Shown: positions 3,480 to 36,604 of the stretch, one piece after another
Layout of the letters: every line of letters begins with the position of its first letter
Position numbering within the stretch: the stretch's first letter is position 1
Source: Tychonema sp. LEGE 06208
Lineage (GTDB): Bacteria; Cyanobacteriota; Cyanobacteriia; Cyanobacteriales; Microcoleaceae
DNA length: 64,000 nt
Assembly: GCF_015207505.1 (NCBI RefSeq)
Contig: NZ_JADEWT010000008.1
Coordinates: 1-64,000 of the forward strand
Reading direction: 5' to 3'
The notes under the pieces: generated by a model
The model's input: the letters and a program-made list of their open reading frames with translations, nothing else
Told to the model about the DNA's origin: nothing
Database searches by the model: none
Made by a program: the position numbers and the translations under genes

Positions 3480-4241
3480 TTAGTTCACAGATGCCATCCT
3501 CACCTTTACTAAGAATTCACTAAGAGCAACCTTTGCATCAGGATTTGACGGTAAATGACTTGTCAAACTTGCCTCTTCTAATACATTGATTAGCCGATCG
3601 CGCTCCTGCTGATAAAATTCAATATCTGTATCTTCCAGCACAGATTTTTCCGCACCAGCCAGCTTGCGATCGATCAAATCGGGAATATACGACAACTGGA
3701 ACTTGTCGTTAAGTTTCACTAAATTCGCCTCAACTTCCCCCGTTTGCATCAAATGAATCCCCGCCAGCAACACCCGATAAACGTACAGCAGCGGCTTAAC
3801 TCGACGCGGGCTTTGCTTCTCAAACAATCTCCATTGAGTCTGAGCAAAACCGAGATAGTGGTGGCTGTGGTGCTTGGTAATGCAGTTCGAGGCGAGCTCT
3901 TTTAACTCTTCGTGTTCCTTGGTAGTGTAAACTATGAGTGGCGAATACAGTTGTTCCAACACGTAGCCGTTGCGCTTCAACAGCAACTCAAGAAACTTTT
4001 TAAGATCGTGAGTGACTAAATCGAGTTCCATTTTCTCCCGAACTTCCGAAACCTCGATTGTTTCTTCTCCCGCAATCAGTCCAATTACTTTCGGTAGCGG
4101 TAAGATATGTACTCCCCGCAAGTCGAAGTCAGAATCTGCGGAAGGAAAACCGTATAAGTGCGATCCGCTGACAGTCGCAAACAGCAGCGGGTAAGGTCGA
4201 ACTGAGATGATTTTGGCTAGATTAGAGATATATTCGATCAT
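3480..4241 (-). CDS. Predicted nucleotidyltransferase (COG3541-like)
   Basis: A 253-residue protein of the DNA polymerase beta superfamily of nucleotidyltransferases. The fingerprint is the GSHLYGFPSADSDFDLRG segment near residues 26-43, which gives the G-S motif followed by the D-x-D metal-binding pair (D38, D40). The rest is helical. These proteins transfer a nucleoside monophosphate to an acceptor, but the acceptor of this family is unknown. A second, diverged member lies immediately upstream on the same strand (4361-5302). The 119-base gap makes co-transcription possible but not certain. Confidence 0.85.
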   Translation of the reverse strand: MIEYISNLAKIISVRPYPLLFATVSGSHLYGFPSADSDFDLRGVHILPLPKVIGLIAGEETIEVSEVREKMELDLVTHDLKKFLELLLKRNGYVLEQLYSPLIVYTTKEHEELKELASNCITKHHSHHYLGFAQTQWRLFEKQSPRRVKPLLYVYRVLLAGIHLMQTGEVEANLVKLNDKFQLSYIPDLIDRKLAGAEKSVLEDTDIEFYQQERDRLINVLEEASLTSHLPSNPDAKVALSEFLVKVRMASVN

Positions 4242-4360
4242 TTTTCCAACATTTTATCAATGCTAATTTCAATTCCGGTTAAACAATCGTAAATAGCTGT
4301 AGTGGCGGGTTTTACCAACCATATATGTCTCAAATTAACGATCGCGTAAACCCGCCCCTT

Positions 4361-5302
4361 TTAGCCGATCGCACCTCTACGCGCTTCAATCAAAAACTGA
4401 TTAGCTTTCTCGTAATTAGGACGTTCCGGTAAGGAAGTTTCTGCAAAAGCGCGATCGAACTCTGCGTGCAAGCTCAATCGCCACCGATTCACCTCATCCC
4501 AGGATATTTCTTGATTGCGGATAGATAGCAATTGCGATCGAAAATCCTGCACCCGCACCGGCACAAACCCCTCCTTGAGCACCGTAATTCCCGACAGCAA
4601 CAAGCGAATCAAGTGCATCGCGTGCTTCGATCGCACTTCTCCTGTATTCCGCAAGTCTTGCTCCATTTTTTTAAATTGAGACAAAACGTAGCTATTGTAA
4701 GTTTGATAAATTAATTGAGACAGAAAGATTTCCCTAATTTCTAGCAATTCTTGTGCTACAGGAGAAACAGTTTCTACTAAAGGCGTGTACAAACATTCTA
4801 GCACATTGGGATTAGCTTTTAGTGCCAAAACCAGAAACTTTTGCAGTTCCCAATAACATTCCTGATTTTCCTTGTTTTCCAATTGTTCTGGAATGCCGTA
4901 AAGCGACCAATGAAGTATTGCCGGCGGCTGGTAAATCCCGCGCCTGTCTGTATCGGATTGCTCGTTATCCAAACCGTAGGCTCTGGAACCAACAATGCAG
5001 CGGTAAATTACAGAATCATAGAGGTTATATTCGGCGAGAAAATCTCCTCCTGAGTGCAATCCTTCGCTTTGAAACTGTTTGCGGATGCTGAATTCGTGTC
5101 GCCGCAGGCTAACTTGTGTTGCGTCTGGGAATTTGACTAAATATGCGTGGGAATTGTCGGTAGGCGATTGAACGATGACACCTACTAATCCCGGTTTCCA
5201 AGATTCGTTAGTTGCAGGATTTTTGACTTCAATTTTGGTGACAATTTGGGTTCCTGCGGGGATAATTAAGTTGAAATTTTGGGAAATATTGGCATTTGCC
5301 AT
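4361..5302 (-). CDS. Nucleotidyltransferase with extra N-terminal domain (COG3541-like)
   Basis: A 313-residue protein. Residues 1 to about 90 form an extra, beta-rich domain not present in the neighbour at 3480-4241. The nucleotidyltransferase core begins with VGSRAYGLDNEQSDTDRRG (G105, S106, D117, D119), which keeps the G-S and D-x-D signature. Both tandem genes share this core plus a helical tail containing an HLIRLLLSGI-type segment (HLMQ in the other). The extra domain has an SH3-like look (KPGLVGVIVQS, AYLVKFPDATQVSL) and may contact the substrate, which is inference. ATG start; substrate unknown. Confidence 0.85.
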   Translation of the reverse strand: MANANISQNFNLIIPAGTQIVTKIEVKNPATNESWKPGLVGVIVQSPTDNSHAYLVKFPDATQVSLRRHEFSIRKQFQSEGLHSGGDFLAEYNLYDSVIYRCIVGSRAYGLDNEQSDTDRRGIYQPPAILHWSLYGIPEQLENKENQECYWELQKFLVLALKANPNVLECLYTPLVETVSPVAQELLEIREIFLSQLIYQTYNSYVLSQFKKMEQDLRNTGEVRSKHAMHLIRLLLSGITVLKEGFVPVRVQDFRSQLLSIRNQEISWDEVNRWRLSLHAEFDRAFAETSLPERPNYEKANQFLIEARRGAIG

Positions 5303-5475
5303 GAGGGAACCTCCTGCGGTGGCACGAGCTACAATGTTAGTGTAACATAGATGTAGTATAAAATTCGAGCGAGAATTTTTAGCAATTCGGAAAAGTACAG
5401 CTACATACAGAATTCTGTTTAGCGAAAAAGCAAAAAGTTCTCTAATTTTATCGCTGCTTAATTTTTCGCTTTAGC

Positions 5476-6057
5476 TTATACCCCCTTTTCACTTTCATGT
5501 TGTGCAGGAAGTGCTACACGCCCATGAAAGTCATGATAACGATGTGAAAAGTCTTCTAAATATGGACTTTCAAGCACAGCACGTCGTTTAGAAAAATTAT
5601 TATTTATTTGATGGTATAAGAAATCAGCATCTATCGCAAAAATTTTTTTAAAATCTACTGTTAATTCTGGTATGCCTTCCTGAGATGATTCACATTCTAG
5701 AGGTATTTTTTCCAAAAAATGGTATTGCTGATAACGATTAGATTTAACTAAATTCCAATCTGCTGAATTTTGGTTGGGGCGAATTTCTTGAGCTGTAAAT
5801 ACTTGACAAAAAAGTATAGAATTTAATAACTTATTAGGTTTATCTCGATTTTGCCTAGCGCTATAGTCCCAATCTAAATCACAGTTTTGAGTAACAATAA
5901 TTGCATAAGGATGAACAATAGGTTTAAACTGAATTTGATCGAGGTTTGGAGAAGATTCACTTGCAACTGGTTTAATCTGTATAAGTCCAGTCAGAATTTC
6001 CCCTTGTCTAAGAGCCTCTTTGTCATTCGAGGCTCTGTAAATCAAAGGTTTACTCAT
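5476..6057 (-). CDS. Unknown protein, third gene of TIGR04255 cassette
   Basis: A 193-residue soluble protein that I cannot assign to a named function. It has a notable central segment, PYAIIVTQNCDLDWDY, with adjacent Asn, Cys and acidic residues that could be catalytic or metal-binding. It starts six bases after the stop of the gene before it, so it is almost surely translated from the same message as the TIGR04255-family gene. Base composition is AT-rich compared with genes on either side, which suggests acquisition. Function is unknown; a role with the two upstream genes is inferred from spacing alone. Confidence 0.7.
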   Translation of the reverse strand: MSKPLIYRASNDKEALRQGEILTGLIQIKPVASESSPNLDQIQFKPIVHPYAIIVTQNCDLDWDYSARQNRDKPNKLLNSILFCQVFTAQEIRPNQNSADWNLVKSNRYQQYHFLEKIPLECESSQEGIPELTVDFKKIFAIDADFLYHQINNNFSKRRAVLESPYLEDFSHRYHDFHGRVALPAQHESEKGV

Positions 6058-6063
6058 GGTTAG

Positions 6064-6468
6064 CTACTCAAAATCTAGGACTAAAGGCGGTCTGACTTCG
6101 CTAGGTAATACGCTACCAGTAAGTAATCCTAATTCTTTAGGTAAGGCAGTTTGTCCTAAATCCGACCGACAGTCACTATAATATTCCACCATTCGTTCAA
6201 GCACTTCAGATGCTTCTTGCAATCCTTCGGGAGTGTTAGCAAAAAGCAGATGGAGTAGCGTTAAACACTTAACCCAAGTGATGGTGTTTTGATTGAATTG
6301 ACCAAACCATTCACCACTAATAGGTGATTCGATGGAAACTTCGATTTTTAAGCTAGGAGTACCAGAGGCTAAAGTGTGCCGATACTGCGTCTGAGCAGGA
6401 GTAGGTAAAACTTCATACCTTTGTCCAATTATATTTTTGCTTTGAGTACCACCAGTTGTTACGTGCAT
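6064..6468 (-). CDS. Unknown protein, second gene of TIGR04255 cassette
   Basis: A protein of about 134 residues with no family I recognise. The frame stays open upstream to 6582, but that part overlaps the preceding gene in another frame. The ATG at 6466-6468 (MHVTTGGTQSKN) sits four bases after the TIGR04255 stop codon and is the natural start. The protein looks soluble and mainly helical in its second half (LTLLHLLFANTPEGLQEASE). It is the middle gene of a tight three-gene unit. Confidence 0.65.
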   Translation of the reverse strand: MHVTTGGTQSKNIIGQRYEVLPTPAQTQYRHTLASGTPSLKIEVSIESPISGEWFGQFNQNTITWVKCLTLLHLLFANTPEGLQEASEVLERMVEYYSDCRSDLGQTALPKELGLLTGSVLPSEVRPPLVLDFE

Positions 6469-6472
6469 AGGA

Positions 6473-7273
6473 TTATATTGGTTGAGGTTGCATTGCTCTG
6501 TGCAACTCTTCCGTGATACCCCACCGGAAGAGATTTCTGGCTGTATGGTTGTAGTTATCGAGTATTTTCCAGGCATTTTCACTTTTTTCTATTTTATCCT
6601 CAGTAAAAAAATCACTATCTAATAAATAAGCTGTTTCATCTATACCTCCTTCTGTGTCCCTAACGTTAACAAGCCCATGACTAAAATTAACTTGACCGAA
6701 TTCAGTTTTTAGCTGTAAATTTTTAACAAAATTTTGAATTGAATCTGCTACTTCTGGTGTATAAAGTTCAGAAGCAATATGTTGCGGTATTAATTCATGC
6801 CACTCTTTGTCTTTGATATTTAGTTTTGATCTAATAATTAAATCGCGATATCTTAGTCCTGTTCGTGAATAAAAAGAGGGATTATATATCTTTTCAAAAA
6901 GTTCTACAGCGCGTTTAAATTTATCAATAAAACTTTCATATCTTTCATACTTTGTCGTAGCAAGCGTGATAGAGTTTTTGTCTAAAGATATCTGGCAACT
7001 CAAGTCTTCTGACTTAAATTGATAAGTCAAGTCAATTGAAGTCAAGTCACTGGTAAAATTTGAGCTGAATTGGGTTAAAAGATTAGATAGCTCAACCGGG
7101 AACTGCAAATTTCTAGAAGTTTCAAAAATTGGGTATTCAAACCTTATACTATCTTGAAAGTCTACAGGCTGTTGGGTGGCAATTTTCAGGATAGTTGGAA
7201 ATCTAAGTTGAGCAATAACCTCAATTAGGGGGCTGTCCTCATAAATTACTCTTTCATAGTTTGGGAGCTTCAT
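6473..7273 (-). CDS. TIGR04255 family protein
   Basis: A 266-residue protein whose N-terminus (YEDSPLIEVIAQLRFP) carries the hallmark of the sporadically distributed TIGR04255 family, whose function is unknown. The length is normal for the family. The remainder is a beta-rich body with FYSRTGLRYRDLI near the middle, also characteristic. It is the first gene of a tightly packed minus-strand trio (gaps of 4 and 6 bases) that is AT-rich and lies beside a tRNA-Val gene. These are signs of horizontal acquisition. Confidence 0.8.
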   Translation of the reverse strand: MKLPNYERVIYEDSPLIEVIAQLRFPTILKIATQQPVDFQDSIRFEYPIFETSRNLQFPVELSNLLTQFSSNFTSDLTSIDLTYQFKSEDLSCQISLDKNSITLATTKYERYESFIDKFKRAVELFEKIYNPSFYSRTGLRYRDLIIRSKLNIKDKEWHELIPQHIASELYTPEVADSIQNFVKNLQLKTEFGQVNFSHGLVNVRDTEGGIDETAYLLDSDFFTEDKIEKSENAWKILDNYNHTARNLFRWGITEELHRAMQPQPI

Positions 7274-22738: not shown

Positions 22739-23170
22739 ATGTTTTTATTTGATAGCCCCCAGTCCAAACCCAATCCCAATAGCTGGCGCAGCAAGTTGGA
22801 TACATTTGTCAAAGATAACAAACAAGAATTGGCTGCTTTGGCTTGGGGGCTATTTTTGGAGAGAGGCGAAGAAAGTGAGGATGTTTTGGGCATTGATGTT
22901 GTAGAAAATCCGCGTTTCGTGTATTGTAAAAAAGAGGCGATCGAGGAGTTGAACCGCCAAGTCAAAAATCATATTCAGGAAATTTTAGGAATTTTAAAAG
23001 CTCACAAACCTGAAAAAGAAGTGGCAATTGTGGCGATCGGTGAAGGTGAAATCAAGCTAATTTTATTTGAACCTAAGCCTGAACCTCCTGTTTGTTTTGA
23101 GCAAGCAGCGACTGATGTCGATACATTGTTGGCTAAGCTGGAACAGCAGATGCTTGAATATATGAAATAA
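22739..23170 (+). CDS. Small conserved protein, CcmS-like (possible beta-carboxysome assembly chaperone)
   Basis: A 143-residue soluble protein. The pattern NSWRSKLDTFVKDNKQELAA, followed by LGIDVVENPRFVYC and the strand VAIVAIGEGEIKLILFEP, resembles from memory the cyanobacterial family recently named CcmS, a chaperone for carboxysome shell protein CcmK1. I am only moderately sure of that match. No ccm or rbc gene is in the window, which is not unusual because CcmS is often unlinked. ATG start with a clear gap after the ABC exporter gene. Confidence 0.55.
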   Translation: MFLFDSPQSKPNPNSWRSKLDTFVKDNKQELAALAWGLFLERGEESEDVLGIDVVENPRFVYCKKEAIEELNRQVKNHIQEILGILKAHKPEKEVAIVAIGEGEIKLILFEPKPEPPVCFEQAATDVDTLLAKLEQQMLEYMK

Positions 23171-23265
23171 TCCAAAAAATACAGCCCTGCCTACTTGCCG
23201 GGGCAGGCACGGGGGGCACTCCCTCTGCTTCGCCCAGGCCTACTTGTACAGATGATTTAGGCTGG

Positions 23266-25194
23266 CTATACACCTTTCTTTTTTTTAGGAGATGCTTTTT
23301 TACCTGATTTTGTTTGAGGGCGATCGGGTTCTTTTACAGCATATTTAAACAGAAAATCATCAGGCTTTACTAACGCCGAGCCTGGAATACCCAAACGGCG
23401 GAACTCTGACCAAATCTGTTCGTTTAATAACTTCAAAGCTTGGCGGCGATCTAAGGATGCGATCGCACCCATTACTTGACACAAATTCGATCGCAATAGC
23501 TCTATATTAGAGTCATCCACAGAAAATTGACTCACCATTGAAATCCCTGTTGCCAAATAAGCTGAATCCGGCGATATTTTTTTCGATCTTAATCCCTGAC
23601 AAACCAGCTTTAGCCACACCGGATAAAGTTCTAACCAATTAGCGCGTTGCAATTCATTTAATGCCATTTCCTCCATTCCCAACGCCCCCCAAGTACAAAG
23701 CGATGTTTCAGCTAAATTAGCATCCCGATTTTGCACCGCAGACTCCCATAATTTGCCCGCATAATCCTTAAACCGAACCGCCAGAAAATCATAGGCTTCC
23801 TCAACTTTATCAGTAGCCGTAACCTGATAAACCGTCTCGCCGCGCGGTAACTTATCGCCCCGATAAGATAGCCAATTGTGAGAACCGCACAAATGTATTT
23901 TTCGATCGACTACAACTTCCTTCGCATGAGAATTTCCCAGCCAAAATACCTGCACTGCTGACAAACCTTCCCGCGTTTTAATTTCTCTCAGCTTTTGCTC
24001 GACTTGCGGCGGAATCGGTCGGGTTTCATCCTGCTGTCGCCGGGAAATACCGTGACCAATTAAAATCCAAACTCCCCGATTAGCCAAATTTTGAAGTAAT
24101 TGAATAAACTCATTATCTACCACTTCCTTGCTCACCCAAGGAGAATAAATTAAGACTTGATAATTCCCCTTCCTCAATGTTTCTAAAAAAGACTGCCGAA
24201 TTTGACTGTCACGCAGTAAAATTACTTGGTCTTTTTCCTGACTTCCCTTTGATGCAGCTTGCGTCTCTGTTTCCCTCAATCCTTTAACATTTTCAATCGC
24301 CTGCTGTTCTATTTTCTGAAGTCTGGCTTCAACTTCTTTATTTCGCCGATTCAGGAGTTCTTCCCGTTCCGCAGCAATAGTTTCATCGCTCAAATGCAGC
24401 AAGGTTTGCAAAGAAAGTTTACCTTCAGTTTGCAGAATGTCAAGCAGATCGGAAGCATAGTGTAAAATTTGCTTTCCTCGTCTTACTTGCAGTTTAACCG
24501 CATCTTCAAGGGCATCAAAAATTACAAAAATTGCCACAGATTGCCAGATAGCTTGACTCTCCTGGGTAAAAGAAGCAGCAGTAATCATTTTACCATCTTC
24601 AGGAACGTGTAAGCCTAAACTAGAAGCCTGAATAATTCGTTGGAGTTCCTCAAGTCCTAACTCAGATATTTCTTGACACCGATTTTCGATGGTAATCAAA
24701 TCTTCAAAAATTGGTAGCTCGATTTGTACTTCTTCTAAAGGGGAAGATAGAAAAAATAGATTTCCCTGCAAGGGGTCGGAAATCGCATAAATCTGCTTCG
24801 TTTGCGGCGGTTGCGGTACAGAACCTTCTAAGTAAAATTGTCTCCCTTGAGAAGTTAGAATAATTTGGGAATCCGGTGTCCAAGCTAAAGTTTCTAAACT
24901 CCGCAGCGTCGTAGCAGTATTTTGCACGAATACAGGGTCGAGTCCCAAAGCTTGTGCTAATTCATTTTCAGTTGGTGTCAATTCCATCTCCATCCCAGCG
25001 CGGAGAATAAACTCTTCAAGAATGTTAAATTTGCGGGGTTCGCTAATAGTAACTTCTACTGATATTTGCTCTAAACAACAGCGAAATTGTCGGGCAGCTA
25101 GCACTGATATGCCAGCCGGACTTTGCTTTTCAATTTGTTTGACAAATTCCTGTAATTGGGGGTTAATTGGTTTAGGGGAGGATACTAAAAACAT
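23266..25194 (-). CDS. Phospholipase D-family (HKD) protein, partner of the giant helicase
   Basis: A 642-residue protein. The N-terminal 280 residues are unassigned and helical, with a winged-helix-like region (ELAQALGLDPVFVQNTATTLRSLE). Residues 280-320 look like coiled coil (EREELLNRRNKEVEARLQKIEQQ). From about residue 345 there is a PLD-family nuclease fold: YQVLIYSPWVSKEVVDNEF, then GVWILIGHGIS, and the catalytic motif SHAKEVVVDRKIHLCGSHNW near residues 422-441 (H, K, D, then G-S-x-N-W). Only one HKD motif is seen, so it would act as a dimer. The tail ends in a lysine-rich stretch. It lies downstream of the SF1 helicase on the same strand. Confidence 0.85.
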   Translation of the reverse strand: MFLVSSPKPINPQLQEFVKQIEKQSPAGISVLAARQFRCCLEQISVEVTISEPRKFNILEEFILRAGMEMELTPTENELAQALGLDPVFVQNTATTLRSLETLAWTPDSQIILTSQGRQFYLEGSVPQPPQTKQIYAISDPLQGNLFFLSSPLEEVQIELPIFEDLITIENRCQEISELGLEELQRIIQASSLGLHVPEDGKMITAASFTQESQAIWQSVAIFVIFDALEDAVKLQVRRGKQILHYASDLLDILQTEGKLSLQTLLHLSDETIAAEREELLNRRNKEVEARLQKIEQQAIENVKGLRETETQAASKGSQEKDQVILLRDSQIRQSFLETLRKGNYQVLIYSPWVSKEVVDNEFIQLLQNLANRGVWILIGHGISRRQQDETRPIPPQVEQKLREIKTREGLSAVQVFWLGNSHAKEVVVDRKIHLCGSHNWLSYRGDKLPRGETVYQVTATDKVEEAYDFLAVRFKDYAGKLWESAVQNRDANLAETSLCTWGALGMEEMALNELQRANWLELYPVWLKLVCQGLRSKKISPDSAYLATGISMVSQFSVDDSNIELLRSNLCQVMGAIASLDRRQALKLLNEQIWSEFRRLGIPGSALVKPDDFLFKYAVKEPDRPQTKSGKKASPKKKKGV

Positions 25195-25254
25195 CTTGAT
25201 TTATAAAGCTTTAGTGAATTGCGGATTTTAAGGCAATACGGTTCAGATAAGACC

Positions 25255-25361
25255 GATCCCCCCGGCGCCTTGAGGGCGGGCACGGGGGCACCGCCCCTAC
25301 AAAGGGGGGAACAAGAAGGTGCTGCGAAGTCCCCCGACTATCCGGGGGATTTAGGGGGATC
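25255..25361. repeat. Miniature inverted-repeat element (GATCCCCC ... GGGGGATC)
   Basis: About 107 bases bounded by GATCCCCC at 25255 and its exact complement GGGGGATC ending at 25361. Inside are a GC-rich run with GGGCACGGGGGCACCGCCCC and a second hairpin CCCCCGACTATCCGGGGG. It sits between the helicase and PLD genes and looks like a non-coding mobile or palindromic element. Confidence 0.7.
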
Positions 25362-25467
25362 TCCGGGGAATTAACAGTGTTAACCCAAGCGTATTGGATT
25401 TTAAGGAATAAGTATTTCAGTCGCTAAAGGTTGATTTTCCTCGGCAATTCTGAATTTGCTACCAATT

Positions 25468-28400
25468 TTAGCCCAAGATGCTAGAAACATCAATCATTCC
25501 TCCATTGCGGCGTACAATATTTGCTACTTCGGAATACATACCTCCGACTTTGCCTTTGTGCTTGGTAAATAGTGAATGGCATCCCACAATTATTAGCAAT
25601 TCCTGAGCGCGGGAAAAGGCAACGTTTACCCGTTCTGGCTTTTTCGCAAAACCAATATCTCCATCGGAATTGTTCCTCACCATGCTGACAATAATAATCG
25701 GGCGTTCCATGCCCTGAAATCGGTCAACAGTACCCGTTCTAATGGAAAGTGAGGGGAATTTGCGATCGCCGAGCATTTCTTCAATGCGCCTCAATTGAGC
25801 GCCGTAAAAAGTAATGATGCCAATTTCTTTTTTCGGTTGTCCTTCGGCAACTTTCAGGCTCCAAACGTCCTCCATTTGCTCGCAGAGAATGTCGATCGCT
25901 TCGACTTCTTTAAGATTATATCTTGATGTGCCTTCTAGCTGCTCTGCAAAACTCGGTTCTTGCGGCATTTTCACCCAAATTAGGTGATGTTGTTCTCGGA
26001 TAATGTCGCCAGCTAAATTGTGCGATCGCACTTTTTCAGGCTCCACAATCCCACAACGCAAGCTATGGTCGTAAAATTGATTAATTGCTCCCATAATGTA
26101 GGGGTGCATCCGATACTGAACAGTCAGCCGCCGCTTGATGCTTTCTGGCGCAGCTTCAAATTGTTTCTTAAATAGAGATTCTTCCAAAAAGCTGATATCT
26201 TCGGGTTCGCTTCCCATTTCGGTGGCAATTTCTTCTAAACTCTTTTCATGTAGCATTGGCGGTAACTGGCGGTAGTCGCCAATTAATATTAATTTTTTGC
26301 CTTTGAGTGCAGGAATCAAAATTTCGGGAGGCGTGCATTTGCTCACTTCGTCAATGATGACTGCATCAAAATTGGTAAATTCTTTGAAGCCGTACCCCGC
26401 TACTTGGCTGCAAGTAATGCCGATGACGTTGGCATTGTCGATGTAAACTTGTCTCAATTCGCCCCGATCTTGTTCCGAGGGGCTGCGGAGTTTGGCGATC
26501 CAATCTTGAGTTAGTTTTTCATAGCCTTTGAGGTGGGATTCTGCTCGATCGCGTTGTTGGTGCCAAGCATCGAATTGTGTTTTGATTTCGTGCAAGAAGT
26601 TGAGATCGTATAAGCCGCTGTCGGGAATTGGTGGCTTTAGGCGATCGGGGATACTTTGCCACGCTGACTCCCACCATTCTCGATCGGAAATTAAAGTGGG
26701 TGGTAGTTGCTGTTGTTGTTGGATTTGTTGCAGTTCAACATCCATTTCCTGAACCAGATTTTGACATTCTCGAAGTTGATTGAAAGCTTGACTAGCTGCT
26801 TTTTGCAAGCTGGCTTGAATGGTTGTTATAGCCTCTTCTATTACTAGCAGTCCCAATAATGGATCGAGGGAGGAAATTAATTGTTCAAACTGACTTATCC
26901 GATCTTCCCACAACTTCGCTCGCTGCGTAAATTCTGATACAGGTGTGTTAGCGATCGCTTGTGAAAGAGAAGAAAAAGATTGATAGCGCATAACTAAACT
27001 GCGTAAGTTCGCTGGAATACCCGATCGCTGGCTCAATTCTGCTAAGACTTGTACCGCTTTTTGTGCCTTGGCTCGATATTCACGCTCAAGAGGCTCTAAC
27101 TGCTTTTTAGCAGTTGCTATTTCCTGTTGTTGCTTAGTTGTTGCTTGTTGAGACTTGTTAAGCTGTTGTTTAAGATTCTGGAGTTGTTTTTCAGTTTCCG
27201 GTTGCTCCAGCTCCAGCCATTGAGATATGCTGGTGGCAATGCCCTCGATCGCCTCCGATGCAATCACATTTAATTCCGCATCAAAGTTGGATATTGGCAC
27301 TTCATTTTGTTGGGCAATTAAACTAGCAATTTTTGACCGACACCTATCGACGTTAGAACGCCAAGGCTGAGGTTTTGCAGGGACAATCGCCAGCAACTCC
27401 GGTGGCAATTTAATCAGATTATCTGTAAATTTACGCTTCTCTTGCACGCATTTTTTTAACTCCTCATATACGCTCTGATAAGCTGTGGATTCCCATTTTG
27501 TTAGGGCTTTCAAAACAGAGTTTTTATGATCTTGCTCTAATTCCTGTTGTTGGTTAAGCCAGTTTCGCGCAGTAGTAGAAATCCCGCCGATCGCTTCTTT
27601 TGCTACCTCGTTTAGTTGCGGTTCAAATGCAGAAATTTTCTTGACTTCACTTTTTTTTAAATTAGCAATCTTTGATTTGCACCGATCGAGATGCGATCGC
27701 CACGGCGCGGAATTAGCCTTTACAAATGATACCACGTCCAGCGGTAATTGCATCAAATCGTCTGTAAAGACTCGATCAGTTTCTAGACATTGCTTCATCG
27801 CTGCATACACGCGATCGTAAGCGGTGGACTTCCAGCGATCTATTGCAGGTCTGACTGCAACAATTTTTAAACTTCGCTGTTCCAAAGAGTTGATATTTTT
27901 TTGTATATTTTTTTGGTTATTCAGACCTAGCTGATAATTTGTTTCCAAAAGTTGAACTGCGGCTGGCTTATCGCGGAGCGATCGTTCAGATTCTGCCGCT
28001 TCTCTGATGGATGATATCGCCTCTCTAGAATGAGACAATGACCTTTTAATCTGTGGAAGACCTTGTTCCTTTAACCAAGCTGCTAAACTCAAATAATTCA
28101 GCCATAAATTTGGAGGGTTTTGAACACCTAAATCGGCGGCCATTCTAGCTGCATTTTCTACTTTTACCTTAAAGCTTTTTTCAGAACTATACCCAAGTTT
28201 AATGAGTTCGGTACTGTTGCATACTTTGATAGCTGTTCTCCATAAATTAATCACACTCTCATCTTCCCAGTTAATTGAAGGTTGAGACATTAGCAATTCC
28301 AAAGTAGGCAGGATATGTTCAACAATTTCGTGCTGTTTAGCTTCCGCTTCTCGATAGAGACTTTCCTTAAGCCTACAAGTTTCCTCTAACTCTGCCTTGC

Positions 28401-30639
28401 GCGATCGCAACTTCTTGTGATTTTCTTGCAACTTTTCTTCCGATCGCAGGTACACATCAAACTGCTGCGATCCTGCTAACAAATTCCCGAAAAAATCTAT
28501 ATTTTCTCGCTGTTTTGCCAACCGCTGCTCGCAGTCATCAGCCGTATTTCTCAGCCAATTGCCAATTACTTTATCTTCCACAAATGGCAAACCTTCCTCT
28601 TCAACTCGCTCCGCGCGCCCCTTTCGCAAAGCGCGGATAACGGGACTGTGAATTAAGCGACTCAAAGCATTATCAACAGCTAAATTTGCTTGAGAAGCAA
28701 TTAAAGTCCTCCCGCCCCGCAGCGCAATTTGATAGGAAATTTCAGCGATGACTGTTGTTTTTCCCGTTCCAGGTGGCCCTTGAATTAACACTAAATCGGG
28801 TGCAGACAATACAGCTTCTACTGCTGCAATTTGGTCGGCATTTGCCCCAGATAACAACAAATCTTCTGGTTTCAGTTTAACCGTTGTTTGCGGGGTTCTG
28901 GCCTGGGAAGCATCGAAGAAAAATTCGCCTACATAGGGATTCTGAGCAATTCCCTTTTGCAAATCGTCTAAAGCTTTTTTCTGCCGTTTAATTTGAGTTA
29001 AATCTCCCGCAGCCTCGAAAGACAAAAAGCCTGTTTTCGGCAATTGATAGTTTCCTTCTCCTATTTTTTCTACTAACTCAGCATCCAGTCTCACCCGGAT
29101 AAATCCCTTTGCTTTGTCAACCTCTTCGATCGAACCTAACAAAATTGCCTGCCACTTGAAAAGCTGCGGGACAGATTCTCGATCGTCGGATGTGCGATCG
29201 TCTTGCTCGCGGATTTCTTCAACTCTAACTACAAGTTTTATATCCTCATTTCTCGCCTTAGCTGCTCTCGTCCAAAAGTCATCTTGTTTGAGAGCGGTTC
29301 CTGATGATTTGTCGAGTTGCGCTAAAGATGCGTTAATCTCAAAAGTAATTTTGCGGGTAGCAGAGCCGTAATTATGACCGAAAAAAGGTACGAAAAATTC
29401 TCGCGTTTTAGCAATTCGCTCTTCTATCTTTAAAAAGGCTTTCCAAGCTTTTAACTGTTCTTCGGTTGGCACGCAATCCCCGCAAAAGGGAACTGTTTTC
29501 ATGCGCTCTAAAGCCGAAGTTGGGACGGGCATTCGAGACTGGCGATCGAGGTGCAGTCCCAGGGAAAAAAGAACAGAAAAACCGTCATTGTATCCCCGTT
29601 CTGGGGATACTAAACGAGCTGAAAGCAACCGCAAGTTATTATGTCTATCTTCTGTTACCAGAGCTAACAAACTTAAGGTTTTTTGCCGTTGTTTCAAAAT
29701 TTCTGGTAAGTTGGCTGTTTCGATGTCTGTGGCGATCGCCAGTTCCCATTTTTCTTCGCCCGGTGATTCTCCCGGCCCTTTGCGACGGACGTAGAAAGGC
29801 CTGGGTTCGTCTCCGAGAATATCTGAAAGCAATTCGGCGGCACGATCGCGCCGATCGCTAAATTCAGGATACTTTAAGAGAGCATCTTTACCTTCTAGCT
29901 CGCGGATTAAGTTATCTGTCGCCCGATCGCCTAAAAACCGATATCCCCAATTTTCATTATTATTTCTAGGCTCTGTTGCACTTGGCAATGAAAAAATAGA
30001 TAGATTATTACTGATTTGAGGGGCTGTAACAATTGCCGAAATTTCTATTAAAAATTGGTGGTTAGATGCTTGCAAAACAATGGAGCCAGATAGATTAGTT
30101 CCGGCGGGAATATCTTGGGAATTGAGGATAATATCTAGTTTTTGCAACCCGCAAGAAAGGTAAGGCTGCTGTACTTTTAACCAAGGGTGAGAGCAGGAAA
30201 CTTTGCAGTCGCCGCCGAGTTGCAGTTGTTCGGTTCGCTGCAAATATCGGTTAGTTTGGATTTCCCCAAAATGGACTGCTGTGGGGATATCCCAGCTTAC
30301 TCCCAGCCATTGGACGTTGGGAGCGCTTCCCAAACATCTTACTCTATCTAAAACAGGTGCGGTATGCGGTGCGGATTCGATCGCAACTTCTCCCGTATTC
30401 CCGCCGACATTCCGCTCGATGCTCAAGTTTTCCAGTTTCACTCCGGAGACTGCGATTTTCAAAACAGGTTCGTCAGCGGCAAAAATGACGGTGTTTTCTC
30501 CTTCCCCCCGCAGCGCGATCGCTTTTTCAATGGTAAATGGCCCCTTATATTCCCCTGCTGTCAAAGCGATCTCAGATCCATCTTTAACAATTGTCAATAA
30601 CTCACCAAAGTTGTCGGGATCGGCGGAGAAAGTAGCCAT
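25468..30639 (-). CDS. Giant superfamily 1 helicase (COG1112 / DNA2-NAM7 type) with N-terminal beta-helix
   Basis: A 1723-residue protein. Residues 1 to about 100 resemble a right-handed beta-helix (IALTAGEYKGPFTIEKAIAL, VKLENLSIE). Residues 100-600 are unassigned. The helicase core starts at about residue 620: Walker A GPPGTGKTT, then ASQANLAVDNAL. It is split by an insertion of about 800 residues rich in coiled coil. The core resumes with VIIDEVSKC (Walker B, about 1427), LIGDYRQLPPM, VQYRMHPYI, TVDRFQGMERPIIIVSMVR and NVAFSRAQELLIIVG. All motifs look intact, so it should be an active 5'-3' helicase on RNA or DNA. The PLD gene follows 273 bases downstream. A helicase of this family plus a PLD protein is the content of the Mokosh phage-defence system; assignment here is inference. 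Confidence 0.9.
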   Translation of the reverse strand: MATFSADPDNFGELLTIVKDGSEIALTAGEYKGPFTIEKAIALRGEGENTVIFAADEPVLKIAVSGVKLENLSIERNVGGNTGEVAIESAPHTAPVLDRVRCLGSAPNVQWLGVSWDIPTAVHFGEIQTNRYLQRTEQLQLGGDCKVSCSHPWLKVQQPYLSCGLQKLDIILNSQDIPAGTNLSGSIVLQASNHQFLIEISAIVTAPQISNNLSIFSLPSATEPRNNNENWGYRFLGDRATDNLIRELEGKDALLKYPEFSDRRDRAAELLSDILGDEPRPFYVRRKGPGESPGEEKWELAIATDIETANLPEILKQRQKTLSLLALVTEDRHNNLRLLSARLVSPERGYNDGFSVLFSLGLHLDRQSRMPVPTSALERMKTVPFCGDCVPTEEQLKAWKAFLKIEERIAKTREFFVPFFGHNYGSATRKITFEINASLAQLDKSSGTALKQDDFWTRAAKARNEDIKLVVRVEEIREQDDRTSDDRESVPQLFKWQAILLGSIEEVDKAKGFIRVRLDAELVEKIGEGNYQLPKTGFLSFEAAGDLTQIKRQKKALDDLQKGIAQNPYVGEFFFDASQARTPQTTVKLKPEDLLLSGANADQIAAVEAVLSAPDLVLIQGPPGTGKTTVIAEISYQIALRGGRTLIASQANLAVDNALSRLIHSPVIRALRKGRAERVEEEGLPFVEDKVIGNWLRNTADDCEQRLAKQRENIDFFGNLLAGSQQFDVYLRSEEKLQENHKKLRSRKAELEETCRLKESLYREAEAKQHEIVEHILPTLELLMSQPSINWEDESVINLWRTAIKVCNSTELIKLGYSSEKSFKVKVENAARMAADLGVQNPPNLWLNYLSLAAWLKEQGLPQIKRSLSHSREAISSIREAAESERSLRDKPAAVQLLETNYQLGLNNQKNIQKNINSLEQRSLKIVAVRPAIDRWKSTAYDRVYAAMKQCLETDRVFTDDLMQLPLDVVSFVKANSAPWRSHLDRCKSKIANLKKSEVKKISAFEPQLNEVAKEAIGGISTTARNWLNQQQELEQDHKNSVLKALTKWESTAYQSVYEELKKCVQEKRKFTDNLIKLPPELLAIVPAKPQPWRSNVDRCRSKIASLIAQQNEVPISNFDAELNVIASEAIEGIATSISQWLELEQPETEKQLQNLKQQLNKSQQATTKQQQEIATAKKQLEPLEREYRAKAQKAVQVLAELSQRSGIPANLRSLVMRYQSFSSLSQAIANTPVSEFTQRAKLWEDRISQFEQLISSLDPLLGLLVIEEAITTIQASLQKAASQAFNQLRECQNLVQEMDVELQQIQQQQQLPPTLISDREWWESAWQSIPDRLKPPIPDSGLYDLNFLHEIKTQFDAWHQQRDRAESHLKGYEKLTQDWIAKLRSPSEQDRGELRQVYIDNANVIGITCSQVAGYGFKEFTNFDAVIIDEVSKCTPPEILIPALKGKKLILIGDYRQLPPMLHEKSLEEIATEMGSEPEDISFLEESLFKKQFEAAPESIKRRLTVQYRMHPYIMGAINQFYDHSLRCGIVEPEKVRSHNLAGDIIREQHHLIWVKMPQEPSFAEQLEGTSRYNLKEVEAIDILCEQMEDVWSLKVAEGQPKKEIGIITFYGAQLRRIEEMLGDRKFPSLSIRTGTVDRFQGMERPIIIVSMVRNNSDGDIGFAKKPERVNVAFSRAQELLIIVGCHSLFTKHKGKVGGMYSEVANIVRRNGGMIDVSSILG

Positions 30640-30926
30640 AGATAATTGTGGGGGGCGATCGGGAAGTTGATTTTTAGGTTTCTGAAGTTAACTACAGTTT
30701 AACACTGTTTAATTACGGTTAACATACTCACCGCACTTTGGAAGCGATTCCCTACCCTACCCTACGGGAACCCCTAGGGGGAACGGGAAGTGCTAAGGAA
30801 AAAGGGATAGCTTTGCTTAACGCCGGGGTTTGCCTACGGAAAATGAAACTGTTACATAAAGATGAGAAAGCCTGCAAACCCTCTCCGGCTGTTAATCGCG
30901 CTCGATAGACCTTAATTTTTATGCCA

Positions 30927-31871
30927 TCAAAATAACCAAGAATCAAAATAACCAACAGGCGGCGAATCGTCATGCAAAATTTGAGCTTGATCTAAATTAG
31001 CTATAGATTCCGCCAATTCTCTACCTACTCTAATATCAAGCGCCCTATCGATTAAGGAAAATGAAAATTCATGCCCATCTTGCAAATATTTTGCTCTGGA
31101 AACAATCTCGCTTTTCTCTAAACTAGGGCTGTTACTCCCAATTAAAACGCTATTAATATCCTTCCAAGGAGACACGCATACCTGAGAAAACACGCTTTGA
31201 AAAGTCTTCACCTTTTCGGCATAAAACTCATCTCTTTGCAGCAGATTTACCAGCACAACTCCGGCGCTTGACAAGTGTTTTTGGCAGAGTTGATAAAATT
31301 CTTTGGTAGCCAGCCGGTGCGAAGAGTAACCGTTGCCACAAAACACGTCGGTCATGATGATATCGTACTTAATATCGGGATTTTTCTGTTCTAGATATTC
31401 TCTCCCATCTTGGATTGTGACGCTGAGTCGGCTGTCAAACTGCACTCCAAAACACTTTGTGGCTGCTGAAATCGCGATCGGGTCTACATCAGCACATTCT
31501 ATAACAGTTTCCGGCAAATAATGGTGCAGGATTAACGGAATTCTGGCACCGCCAAACCCAGCTATATAGACTTTTTGGGGTTGATTTTGCCAAACTAAAC
31601 CCAACATCATCGCTTGGGTATATTCAGAAACTAAATGCAGGGGATTGTTGAGGTCGATGACAGATTGCAACAAATCTGTATGCAAATTCACTTTCTCTAC
31701 CAAAGAGAATTTTATTTTATTTTTATCTTTATTAACTGTAACATAGTGAACTCCCGACTCTTGACAAAAAATAACTCCATCCGGCTGTTGTTGTACCCAA
31801 GCCAGCCGCTGTTGAATATTCGCTAAATTGAGAGTTTGCCAGTTTTTTTGTTGGTCAATCATTAATTTCAA
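30927..31871 (-). CDS. Spermidine synthase-like SAM-fold enzyme
   Basis: A 314-residue protein with the fold of polyamine aminopropyltransferases. The glycine-rich loop VYIAGFGGARIPLIL (about residue 103) is followed by the acidic VIECADVDPIAI, then TIQDGREYL and the catalytic-type IMTDVFCGNGYSSHRL near residue 170. The Asp positions that bind the decarboxylated SAM amino group in SpeE are broadly kept, but the HxH-containing N-terminal region differs, so the acceptor may not be putrescine. It starts at an ATG, with the cyclase-domain gene upstream on the same strand 99 bases away, across a hairpin repeat. Confidence 0.8.
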   Translation of the reverse strand: MKLMIDQQKNWQTLNLANIQQRLAWVQQQPDGVIFCQESGVHYVTVNKDKNKIKFSLVEKVNLHTDLLQSVIDLNNPLHLVSEYTQAMMLGLVWQNQPQKVYIAGFGGARIPLILHHYLPETVIECADVDPIAISAATKCFGVQFDSRLSVTIQDGREYLEQKNPDIKYDIIMTDVFCGNGYSSHRLATKEFYQLCQKHLSSAGVVLVNLLQRDEFYAEKVKTFQSVFSQVCVSPWKDINSVLIGSNSPSLEKSEIVSRAKYLQDGHEFSFSLIDRALDIRVGRELAESIANLDQAQILHDDSPPVGYFDSWLF

Positions 31872-34357: not shown

Positions 34358-36604
34358 ATGTCAATTTCAACTGCAACAATTGGATATCCTCGCATTGGTA
34401 AAAATCGCGAAGTTAAAATCGCACTAGAAGCATTTTGGAGTAGCAAATTAGATGCCAATAATTTATTACAAACAGTCAGAAAAGTAGAAATAGAAAACTG
34501 GCAAATACAGCTAAAAACAGGTATAGATCGCATCGGTGTTGGCGATACTACCCTCTACGATAGTGTTCTGGATTGGACAGTTCGCCTGGGGTTAATCCCC
34601 GATCGCTTTCGGGATTTATCAGGTTTAGATCGCTACTTTGCAATGGCGCGGGGCAAAGAAGGGATACCTGCACTAGAAATGACTAAATGGTTCGACACCA
34701 ACTATCACTACCTGGTGCCAGAAATTCCCTCAGAATGGCAGCCTGCTGATTTTAGCGACTTTCTCGAAACGGTTAATCGCGCTCAAACTTTATTAGGCGA
34801 AAAAGTAATTCCTATTGTTTTAGGCCCCATTACTTTATTGCGATTAAGTCGGTTTGACATACCCTTAAATGAAGCAATTTCAAGATTACGAGAGCGTTAT
34901 CTGGCGTTGCTGAAAGCCTTAAAAAACTTGGGTATTTCTGAAGTGCAAATTCACGAACCTGCCTTGGTTCTAAGTGATGCTGGTCAATTCAAAGAAGCCT
35001 TTGAGTCAACCTATAGTTCCTTAGCTGAAATTAAACTTCCCATCGATTTAGTTACTTACTTTGATGATTTAGGAGATACCTATCCTTGGGTGATACAGTT
35101 ACCAGTTGCTAAAATTAGCTTAGACTTTACTCGCGGATGCAATTTGAAATTGCTTAAAGAACAGGGATTTCCGGCTGATAAACGATTGGGTGTGGGAATT
35201 GTAGATGCTCGCAATATTTGGCAAATTCGTCCCGAACAAGTGCTGCCAGTGCTGCAAGAGATTCAGCAAATTACGCCCGATATTGTAATTCAGCCGTCGG
35301 CATCGTTGCAGTTTGTTCCCTACGATGCCGCACGGGAAACAAAGTTGCCAGAACCTCTCCGCAACGTGTTGAGTTTTGCCGAACAAAAACTGCAAGCTGT
35401 GAAGTTTTTGGCACGCAGTTTAGCCGGAGAAGAGACTGGAAGCGATCGCGCTAAAATTAGCAATGCCTGGACAACCTTCGAGGAGTTTAGCCCTACCAAT
35501 ATTGCCGTGCAGGAACGTCTGAACAGCCTGACAACCAATGACTTTCAACGCAAATTATCCTACGGCTTGCGGTTGTCGAAACAGATTTCTCTGCCCATTT
35601 TTCCCACCACAACGATCGGCTCGTTTCCTCAAACCCCGGAAGTGCGAAAACTGCGGCTGCGCTACAAAAAGGGTGAATTGAGTCAAGAAAACTATCAAGC
35701 TGCGATCGACGTTCAAATTGCCGATAGCATTAAAATCCAAGAAGAAATTGGGCTAGATGTGTTGGTGCATGGCGAATTTGAACGCACCGATATGGTGGAA
35801 TATTTCGGACAACAGTTGGATGGATTCGCCTTCACGGCAAATGGCTGGGTACAAAGCTATGGCAGCCGTTACGTGCGTCCGCCGATTATTTACGGTGATG
35901 TTGTTCGCACTGATCCAATGACTGTGCGCGAGTTCAAAGTAGCGCAATCATTGACGCAAAAACCCGTTAAGGGAATGCTAACAGCTCCCGTAACAATTTT
36001 AAATTGGTCATATCCGCGCACCGATATTTCCAGACAAGTACAAGCATTTCAAATAGCTTTGGCCTTGCGGGATGAAATAGCAGATTTAGAAGCAGCAGGA
36101 GCGCAAGTAATTCAAGTAGATGAACCAGCATTGCGCGAAGGCTTACCTCTGAAAGTAGAAAACTGGAATCAATACCTGTCTTGGGCTGTAGATGCGTTTC
36201 TTCTGGCTACCGCAAGCGCTCATCCTCAAACTCAAATTCACACGCATATGTGCTACTGCGAATTTGGCGATATCATCAAAGATATTGAACGGTTAGATGC
36301 CGATGTAATTTCGATTGAAAATAGCCGCAGCAATAACCAAACGCTGCATGAAATAACCGCCGCAGGTTACACCTATCAAGTAGGTAATGGCGTGTATGAC
36401 ATCCACAGTCCAGTGGTGCCAACGACGGAACAGATTTTGCAACAACTGCGAACTGGCATTGCTAATCTACCAACTCAACAAATTTGGGTAAATCCCGATT
36501 GTGGCTTGAAAACACGACGTTGGGAAGAAGTAATTCCGGCGCTAAAAAATATGGTGGAAGCTGCCAAAATCCTGCGGGAGGAAGTAAATGCGACCGGAAA
36601 ATAG
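34358..36604 (+). CDS. metE: Cobalamin-independent methionine synthase
   Basis: A 748-residue MetE, transferring the methyl group from 5-methyltetrahydropteroyltriglutamate to homocysteine. The N-terminal folate-side domain opens with TIGYPRIGKNREVK. The C-terminal catalytic barrel begins near FPTTTIGSFPQTPEVR. Zinc ligands are visible: the His and Cys in IHTHMCYCEF (about residue 628), the Glu in VISIENSRS and the Cys in VNPDCGLKTR (about 713). Length is normal. The gene is under a cobalamin riboswitch and its 3' end overlaps the following unknown gene by 17 bases, so at least one more protein is made under the same control. Confidence 0.97.
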   Translation: MSISTATIGYPRIGKNREVKIALEAFWSSKLDANNLLQTVRKVEIENWQIQLKTGIDRIGVGDTTLYDSVLDWTVRLGLIPDRFRDLSGLDRYFAMARGKEGIPALEMTKWFDTNYHYLVPEIPSEWQPADFSDFLETVNRAQTLLGEKVIPIVLGPITLLRLSRFDIPLNEAISRLRERYLALLKALKNLGISEVQIHEPALVLSDAGQFKEAFESTYSSLAEIKLPIDLVTYFDDLGDTYPWVIQLPVAKISLDFTRGCNLKLLKEQGFPADKRLGVGIVDARNIWQIRPEQVLPVLQEIQQITPDIVIQPSASLQFVPYDAARETKLPEPLRNVLSFAEQKLQAVKFLARSLAGEETGSDRAKISNAWTTFEEFSPTNIAVQERLNSLTTNDFQRKLSYGLRLSKQISLPIFPTTTIGSFPQTPEVRKLRLRYKKGELSQENYQAAIDVQIADSIKIQEEIGLDVLVHGEFERTDMVEYFGQQLDGFAFTANGWVQSYGSRYVRPPIIYGDVVRTDPMTVREFKVAQSLTQKPVKGMLTAPVTILNWSYPRTDISRQVQAFQIALALRDEIADLEAAGAQVIQVDEPALREGLPLKVENWNQYLSWAVDAFLLATASAHPQTQIHTHMCYCEFGDIIKDIERLDADVISIENSRSNNQTLHEITAAGYTYQVGNGVYDIHSPVVPTTEQILQQLRTGIANLPTQQIWVNPDCGLKTRRWEEVIPALKNMVEAAKILREEVNATGK

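Follow-up and report, generated by a model that had tools for sequence, protein, structure and literature searches.

Does a giant SF1 helicase gene beside a PLD nuclease gene in a cyanobacterium form a new kind of Mokosh phage-defence system, or a housekeeping pair that processes nucleic acids? The question is raised by a stretch of 64,000 nucleotides from Tychonema sp. LEGE 06208 (contig NZ_JADEWT010000008.1), here called the window, in which such a pair had been predicted from the sequence alone. Both open reading frames were borne out at their coordinates and strand, and the two genes are adjacent on the same strand, the helicase at 25468-30639(-) and the nuclease at 23266-25194(-). A promoter and terminator scan gave signals that were not clearly above shuffles. 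The features of the locus are as follows.

25468..30639, minus strand: kinase-less MkoA-like SF1 helicase, 1723 aa, with a beta-helix and predicted PapD/ASH-like N-terminus, a conserved 230-600 region and a core split by a long insertion
30022..30639, minus strand: N-terminal extension of the helicase (residues 1 to about 206), specific to its clade and not shared by the core paralogue
26320..28779, minus strand: helicase stretch from motif I to motif II, residues 621-1440, with the long insertion
23266..25194, minus strand: MkoB-like putative adaptor-nuclease, 642 aa
24295..25194, minus strand: residues 1-300, the MkoB-type N-domain, part of it predicted to be winged-helix-like; retained in relatives whose nuclease is swapped or missing
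23725..24237, minus strand: PLD nuclease domain, residues 320-490, with HKD at 423-430 and GSHNW at 437-441
23335..23724, minus strand: C-terminal helical domain, residues 491-620; kept in relatives without PLD in frame
25195..25467, no strand: extra sequence at the helicase/nuclease junction, a putative small-cassette remnant flanked by a 25-nt duplicated junction (76%)
23171..30925, no strand: whole inserted segment between ccmS and a spermidine-synthase-like gene, delimited by flank homology to empty sites

The two proteins and their relation to Mokosh

The helicase carries the complete set of SF1 core motifs that had been predicted: I at residue 621, II (DEVS) at 1430, III at 1454, IV (QYRMHP) at 1508, V at 1640 and VI at 1673. 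Pfam matches to AAA_11 (2.3e-43) and AAA_12 (2.4e-44) agree with this. A coiled-coil insertion of 800 residues had also been claimed; motifs I and II lie 809 residues apart versus 269 in the canonical cyanobacterial MkoA of L061, so the extra length is about 540, and self-comparison found no internal repeat in it. The proposed N-terminal beta-helix gains support from a NosD model that matches residues 14-80 (3.3e-6, well under the model cut-off) and from a strand-rich predicted model of the N-terminus (pTM 0.38). That model resembles a HYDIN PapD-like domain (2e6j, TM 0.66 by target), and the region after the beta-helix looks like a PapD/ASH-like domain. The extension is present in 14 of the 93 kinase-less helicases collected; the others start near query residue 205-230 or, in a few rows, later. 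Moellerella and Aliarcobacter plasmid matches cover the helicase core only.

Within the partner, Pfam PLDc_2 matches at 9.2e-6 (26 bits, cut-off 27), and the one intact HKD motif that had been noticed, at residues 423-430, is followed by GSHNW at 437-441. All three of H, K and D are kept in 39/41 aligned full-length relatives, and HxKx4D is found in 61 of the 65 partners of 500 aa or more (L067-L146); GSxNW has drifted in several Nostocales although H, K and D remain. Across window-type partners (7 sequences, 21 pairs), omega is 0.10 for the PLD part, 0.16 for the N-domain and 0.32 for the C-terminus. The PLD part, with the lowest value of the three, is under strong purifying selection.

An AlphaFold2 model of the partner (mean pLDDT 83.9, pTM 0.56) places three helices and strands at about 58-123, a long helix at 270-309, the PLD domain at about 320-490 and a helical C-terminal domain at 492-620. 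Foldseek matches of this model include NucT, Nuc and Zucchini/PLD6, and also TrmB/TrmBL2 regulators. One TrmB match, 2f5t, is a sugar-binding domain alone, so part of the TrmB likeness may sit in the PLD part. Residues 58-123 look in the model like a winged helix, a call based on the secondary structure and on weak matches of winged-helix models to relatives (3.7e-4 in L061, 1e-3 in L043). A sequence search of the PDB with the partner profile returned no matches.

PADLOC names the helicase MkoA (1.5e-106) and the partner MkoB (3.4e-34 over residues 43-496). By hhalign, a partner profile built from 50 relatives aligns to six canonical cyanobacterial MkoB proteins from the N-domain through PLD (E 1.2e-22), and the helicase cores align to canonical MkoA at 1.9e-62. 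The suspected kinship with Mokosh thus holds for both proteins and includes the N-terminal part of the nuclease, whose 280 residues had been described as of unknown fold; that description is rejected, as the region aligns to MkoB in PADLOC and in the profile-profile comparison.

Mokosh type I MkoA carries a serine/threonine kinase domain. The prediction that this domain is missing here was upheld, with no Pfam Pkinase match in the window helicase or in its kinase-less relatives L027 and L058. Canonical pairs with the kinase occur in the same phylum (L059 and L061, Pkinase 1.4e-33 and 8.5e-44), so its absence is a genuine difference. The window pair shares with type I an MkoA-type SF1 core and an MkoB-type N-domain plus PLD, encoded adjacently on one strand, but its helicase, besides lacking the kinase, has a longer insertion and the clade-specific N-terminus of beta-helix and PapD/ASH-like part, and its nuclease has an extra C-terminal helical domain; in relatives the effector is swapped or missing. 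MkoC of Mokosh type II is a single fused helicase-PLD protein. One PADLOC MkoC model of 1136 positions matches both window proteins, in their helicase and PLD parts (1.2e-32 and 5.8e-13), but here these are two genes. A NERD domain is listed for Mokosh type I in the part of one paper available to us (PMC10952713). No NERD match was obtained up to E 0.1 in the window pair or up to 0.01 in canonical L059 and L061, and NERD may not be a constant type I feature. Hachiman (HamAB), as far as the accessible part of its description goes, likewise joins a sensor helicase to a nuclease effector (PMC12278908), a likeness that is a mechanistic analogy only.

Judged by these sequence comparisons, the pair is a kinase-less, Mokosh-like variant, and is filed as such because it consists of two Mokosh homologues yet lacks the kinase that defines the system. 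The portions of the Mokosh literature available to us contain no description of this variant.

Exchange and probable loss of the partner's nuclease

Among the fetched loci, in which C-termini were inspected, two combine a kinase-less helicase with a partner whose N-domain is fused to DarT in place of PLD, one in genome G227 and the other on a conjugative plasmid of Nostoc sp. C052. DarT was called by PF14487 in G227 (2.3e-18) and by annotation in C052. A gene for an ADP-ribosylglycohydrolase follows the fusion in both (ADP_ribosyl_GH 3.9e-42 in C052; the two products are 76% identical). On the C052 plasmid, the trio of helicase, N-domain-DarT and ADP-ribosylglycohydrolase (L167:8262-15025) is flanked by pglX and pglZ within a BREX operon. 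In DarTG, the antitoxin DarG is a macrodomain protein. The two relatives share with that system a DarT and an ADP-ribose-removing partner, but their DarT is fused to an MkoB-type N-domain and paired with a helicase, and the partner is of the ADP_ribosyl_GH type, not a macrodomain DarG.

In G291 and G403 the N-domain carries a third C-terminus in place of PLD; G520 has this too, in two pieces. The G291 and G403 proteins are 86% identical over their whole length across genomes of two families, which points to a probably recent transfer. This domain gave no Pfam match above cut-off and one match in a PDB search, at E 0.54. The N-domains of G227, G291 and C052 jointly align to the canonical MkoB N-domain at 1.5e-7. 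The third type was located at the following positions.

L164:9866-11335, third C-terminal domain on an MkoB-type N-domain
L199:8968-10386, the same arrangement
L200:8856-10225, the same arrangement

These replacements bear on a rival account of the locus, namely that it is plain Mokosh type I minus its kinase domain, with no new mechanism. The same helicase core, the MkoB-type partner and the Mko names given to both proteins by PADLOC speak for it, but some kinase-less rows carry other effectors, and in a tree rooted on seven canonical cyanobacterial MkoA sequences the kinase-less rows are united with full support and stand apart from those seven. We regard this account as rather unlikely.

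In other relatives the nuclease is missing altogether. Its history was read from a quick LG+G4 tree of 68/100 helicases, 32 truncated, near-identical or partnerless rows being left out along with in-frame PLD-absent relatives; some effector labels were corrected by hand, and a warning attaches to long branches that meet (L114 with L035; L167). On this tree, six changes are required to explain the state "partner without nuclease", and well-supported branches force five of them. Loss is the simpler direction for most of these, since an effector is present in the canonical outgroup and on most deep branches. Nuclease-bearing L092 and L094 are nested among nuclease-free copies in the core clade of the genus, so regain by recombination is possible there. 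PLD is also absent in frame between two retained flanks, and the breakpoints differ among three sets of relatives: about 270-494 (L221-L224), 255-478 (L201, L227 and L228) and about 286-514 (L229). None of the four L221-L224 proteins has a helicase on its fetched stretch.

A mechanism compatible with these arrangements would have the UPF1-like helicase load on invading nucleic acid and unwind it or translocate along it, while the partner's N-domain would serve as the adaptor, attaching either to the helicase or to the nucleic acid. Cutting of the exposed strand would then fall to the PLD domain, which presumably dimerises as other single-HKD nucleases do. Because DarT or the third domain replaces PLD on the same N-domain in relatives, the helicase and N-domain could be seen as a sensing platform and the C-terminus as an exchangeable weapon. 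DarT acts on single-stranded DNA, so the platform would probably present ssDNA. This would run contrary to the view, in what is available to us of one source, that Mokosh degrades viral transcripts (PMC11291487).

We therefore put forward, tentatively and at less than even confidence, the general proposal that MkoB-type proteins are more than nucleases and serve as adaptors by which PLD, DarT or a new domain can be exchanged as effectors on a UPF1-like helicase sensor, that the platform probably presents ssDNA and not RNA, and that the disarmed platform was domesticated in cyanobacteria after repeated removal of its weapon. If this were true, Mokosh would become a modular platform and no longer a fixed helicase-nuclease pair. 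Natural weapon-swap and disarmed versions would allow sensing to be separated from killing, and the substrate, RNA or ssDNA, could be tested by comparing PLD and DarT versions. The locus would also offer a case of a defence-type machine seemingly turned into a core cellular gene pair.

Linkage and the helicase/nuclease junction

The partner lies on the same strand within 6 kb in 91 of the 93 kinase-less helicases, a set biased by the fact that 80 loci were fetched with the partner as query; within that limit, linkage of helicase and PLD genes in other genomes is usual, with exceptions. In the 91 linked loci, the two genes overlap in 59 and are more than 1 kb apart in 17. The exceptions include 7/80 partner-query loci with no helicase (some on short contigs), G125, in which the genes are 1.3 Mb apart, and G276, in which they are on different contigs. 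No helicase was found on 6 of 11 odd Nostocaceae-type stretches either, three of these being full 20-kb stretches. Partners without a helicase, together with the possible regain in the core clade, slightly weaken both the defence and the adaptor readings and slightly favour a housekeeping role. On three 20-kb stretches (L221, L225 and L231), MkoB-type N-domain proteins occur with no helicase on the stretch; these are possibly orphan adaptors.

Copies of the pair are plasmid-borne in Aulosira laxa, Cyanobacterium sp. HL-69 and Nostoc sp. C052, as would suit an addiction or plasmid-stability module of the toxin-antitoxin type in which the helicase restrains a C-terminal toxin. The ADP-ribosylglycohydrolase that accompanies the DarT versions and the frequent absence of the nuclease part fit such a module as well. 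We nevertheless consider it very unlikely: an antitoxin as large as this helicase (1,200-1,700 residues) would be unusual, and the overlapping genes of 59/91 loci leave no space for an antitoxin gene between them.

At the junction itself, the two genes as called share 25 bases in G304 and G129; in the window, 273 bases separate them. In G292, G298 and L207 the junction holds a ribbon-helix-helix-like gene (RHH_1 0.054 in L207; the G298 copy gave no match) together with a second gene, also found in G291, whose product of 121-127 aa looks membrane-bound by eye. The cassette was placed in relatives as follows.

L162:10692-11413, junction cassette
L158, junction cassette
L207:4150-4843, junction cassette

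The window keeps only the 3' end of the ribbon-helix-helix-like gene, together with duplicated junction sequence. Its junction appears to be the decayed remnant of a small cassette that is intact in relatives, and the cassette would be either a regulator/effector add-on or a passenger. Several Nostoc loci among L077-L128 have variable genes between helicase and nuclease, and in L084, L096 and L121 a C-terminal remnant of the helicase overlaps the nuclease start. The Nostoc junction behaves as if it were an insertion hotspot.

A core paralogue, an accessory copy and the reading as defence

At E 1e-3, the partner was matched in 38/291 genomes of the phylum, some by the PLD part only, and the N-domain profile was found in 86/340 genomes of the order. 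The whole-partner profile matched 143/217 genomes of one other family, Nostocaceae-like by its named loci, often with PLD. The pair or the partner occupies one conserved chromosomal place, with the same three following genes, in 14 of 40 fetched neighbourhoods. What lies downstream of nuclease-free partners varies among the neighbourhoods: glutamate-cysteine-ligase-like and TrmL-like genes, assigned by eye, in one set of genera, and other, unrelated genes in the rest. The idea that such partners are constantly followed by a swapped effector encoded separately was considered and rejected on this ground.

Within the genus of the window, a core paralogous pair is present in 28/29 species, and in 25/25 of the high-quality genomes; the sole member without it has a genome that is 84% complete. 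Its partner protein has about 300 residues and ends before the nuclease in 26/28, and carries PLD in the other two (G195 and G292). Purifying selection also acts on the nuclease-free core gene (5 sequences, omega 0.21), and the same upstream gene clusters precede the core pair in 4/4 genus members examined. Such a copy would now be a vertically inherited gene pair with a separate role. The window type, a beta-helix helicase with PLD, was counted in 6/29 (G000, G291, G292, G298, G304 and G305, where the PLD gene of G291 is cut by the contig end). This armed type is accessory in the genus, and universal conservation of the pair, which would have spoken against defence, was not found.

The near-universal paralogue, its constant surroundings, its omega and the conserved place in the 14 neighbourhoods are what a housekeeping pair would show, in which helicase and adaptor would take part in the quality control of RNA or DNA, with the nuclease as an optional processing activity. 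Raised in the original prediction, this alternative may hold for the mostly nuclease-free core paralogue. It leaves unexplained the sharing of a site by that type and a NACHT-HEAT protein, described below, and the DarT version inside BREX; as an account of the window pair it appears unlikely to us.

The site in question lies after ccmS, a carboxysome chaperone gene. Its neighbourhood was fetched for 15 of the 26 other genomes having ccmS, and the site was compared in the 10 genomes, the window included, in which ccmS and the spermidine-synthase-like gene lie on one stretch. The pair occupies it in 3/10 (window, G305 and G298) and a NACHT-HEAT protein in 3/10 (G099, G303 and G315; NACHT 8.4e-9 for the G099 copy, the other two called by similarity). 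Neither is present in 4/10 (G293, G300, G304 and G311), the spermidine-synthase-like gene of G311 being itself interrupted. Aligned to empty sites, the window loses homology at 23167-23169 and regains it at 30926-30927. G304 has its pair at another locus (77/85% identity to the window pair) and an empty ccmS site, around which 14 of 15 matched window genes are 86-99% identical and one short ORF 71%. The flanks are not side by side on the stretch in G309, G195, G297, G306, G307 and G291; AbiEi/AbiEii genes lie beside ccmS in G195, and a 45-residue NACHT remnant is found in G307.

The evidence for a location in defence islands is mixed, with defence genes beside some relatives but no clear island in the window. 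On the HL-69 plasmid the pair follows an HsdR-like gene by 94 bp, and in G292 its neighbours include an HsdM gene (MTase_I 2.7e-206) and one that resembles HsdS by eye. To these type I restriction-modification neighbours are added the BREX operon around the C052 trio and the NACHT-HEAT protein at the exchange site. The window has no clear defence neighbours: for 38 of its 39 other ORFs of 120 aa or more, defence-library matches were unconvincing as defence. Of the additional matches the strongest, in one ORF each, had E 1.4e-48 (type II nicking-endonuclease model) and 3.5e-38 (DinG model); by eye we take these ORFs for a DNA glycosylase and a DinG-like helicase.

We consider it moderately probable that the window pair serves as an accessory module against phages (or mobile elements) and represents a kinase-less, Mokosh-like variant. 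MkoA/MkoB homology, an HKD under purifying selection, the usual linkage, patchy presence at an exchange site, and relatives beside restriction genes and inside a BREX operon argue for it. Against it stand the lack of convincing defence neighbours in the window, a nuclease dispensable in many lineages and the absence of relatives in viral contigs (none among 6 pattern matches). The strongest argument against defence is the conserved copy in another family, since a fixed place and presence in about two-thirds of that family's genomes are unusual for a defence gene. For this reason, the armed accessory copy of the window is kept apart from the core copy; the former is probably defence, and the latter is possibly domesticated.

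Three further observations concern the rest of the window. A cobalamin-independent methionine synthase gene at 34358-36604 has a full-length match in G304 and in 0/7 other relatives. At 3480-7273 lies a cluster of small genes, one of them TIGR04255. Within that interval, positions 4361-5302 encode a 313-aa product, of which G292 and G291 have a close homologue near their helicase-nuclease pair.
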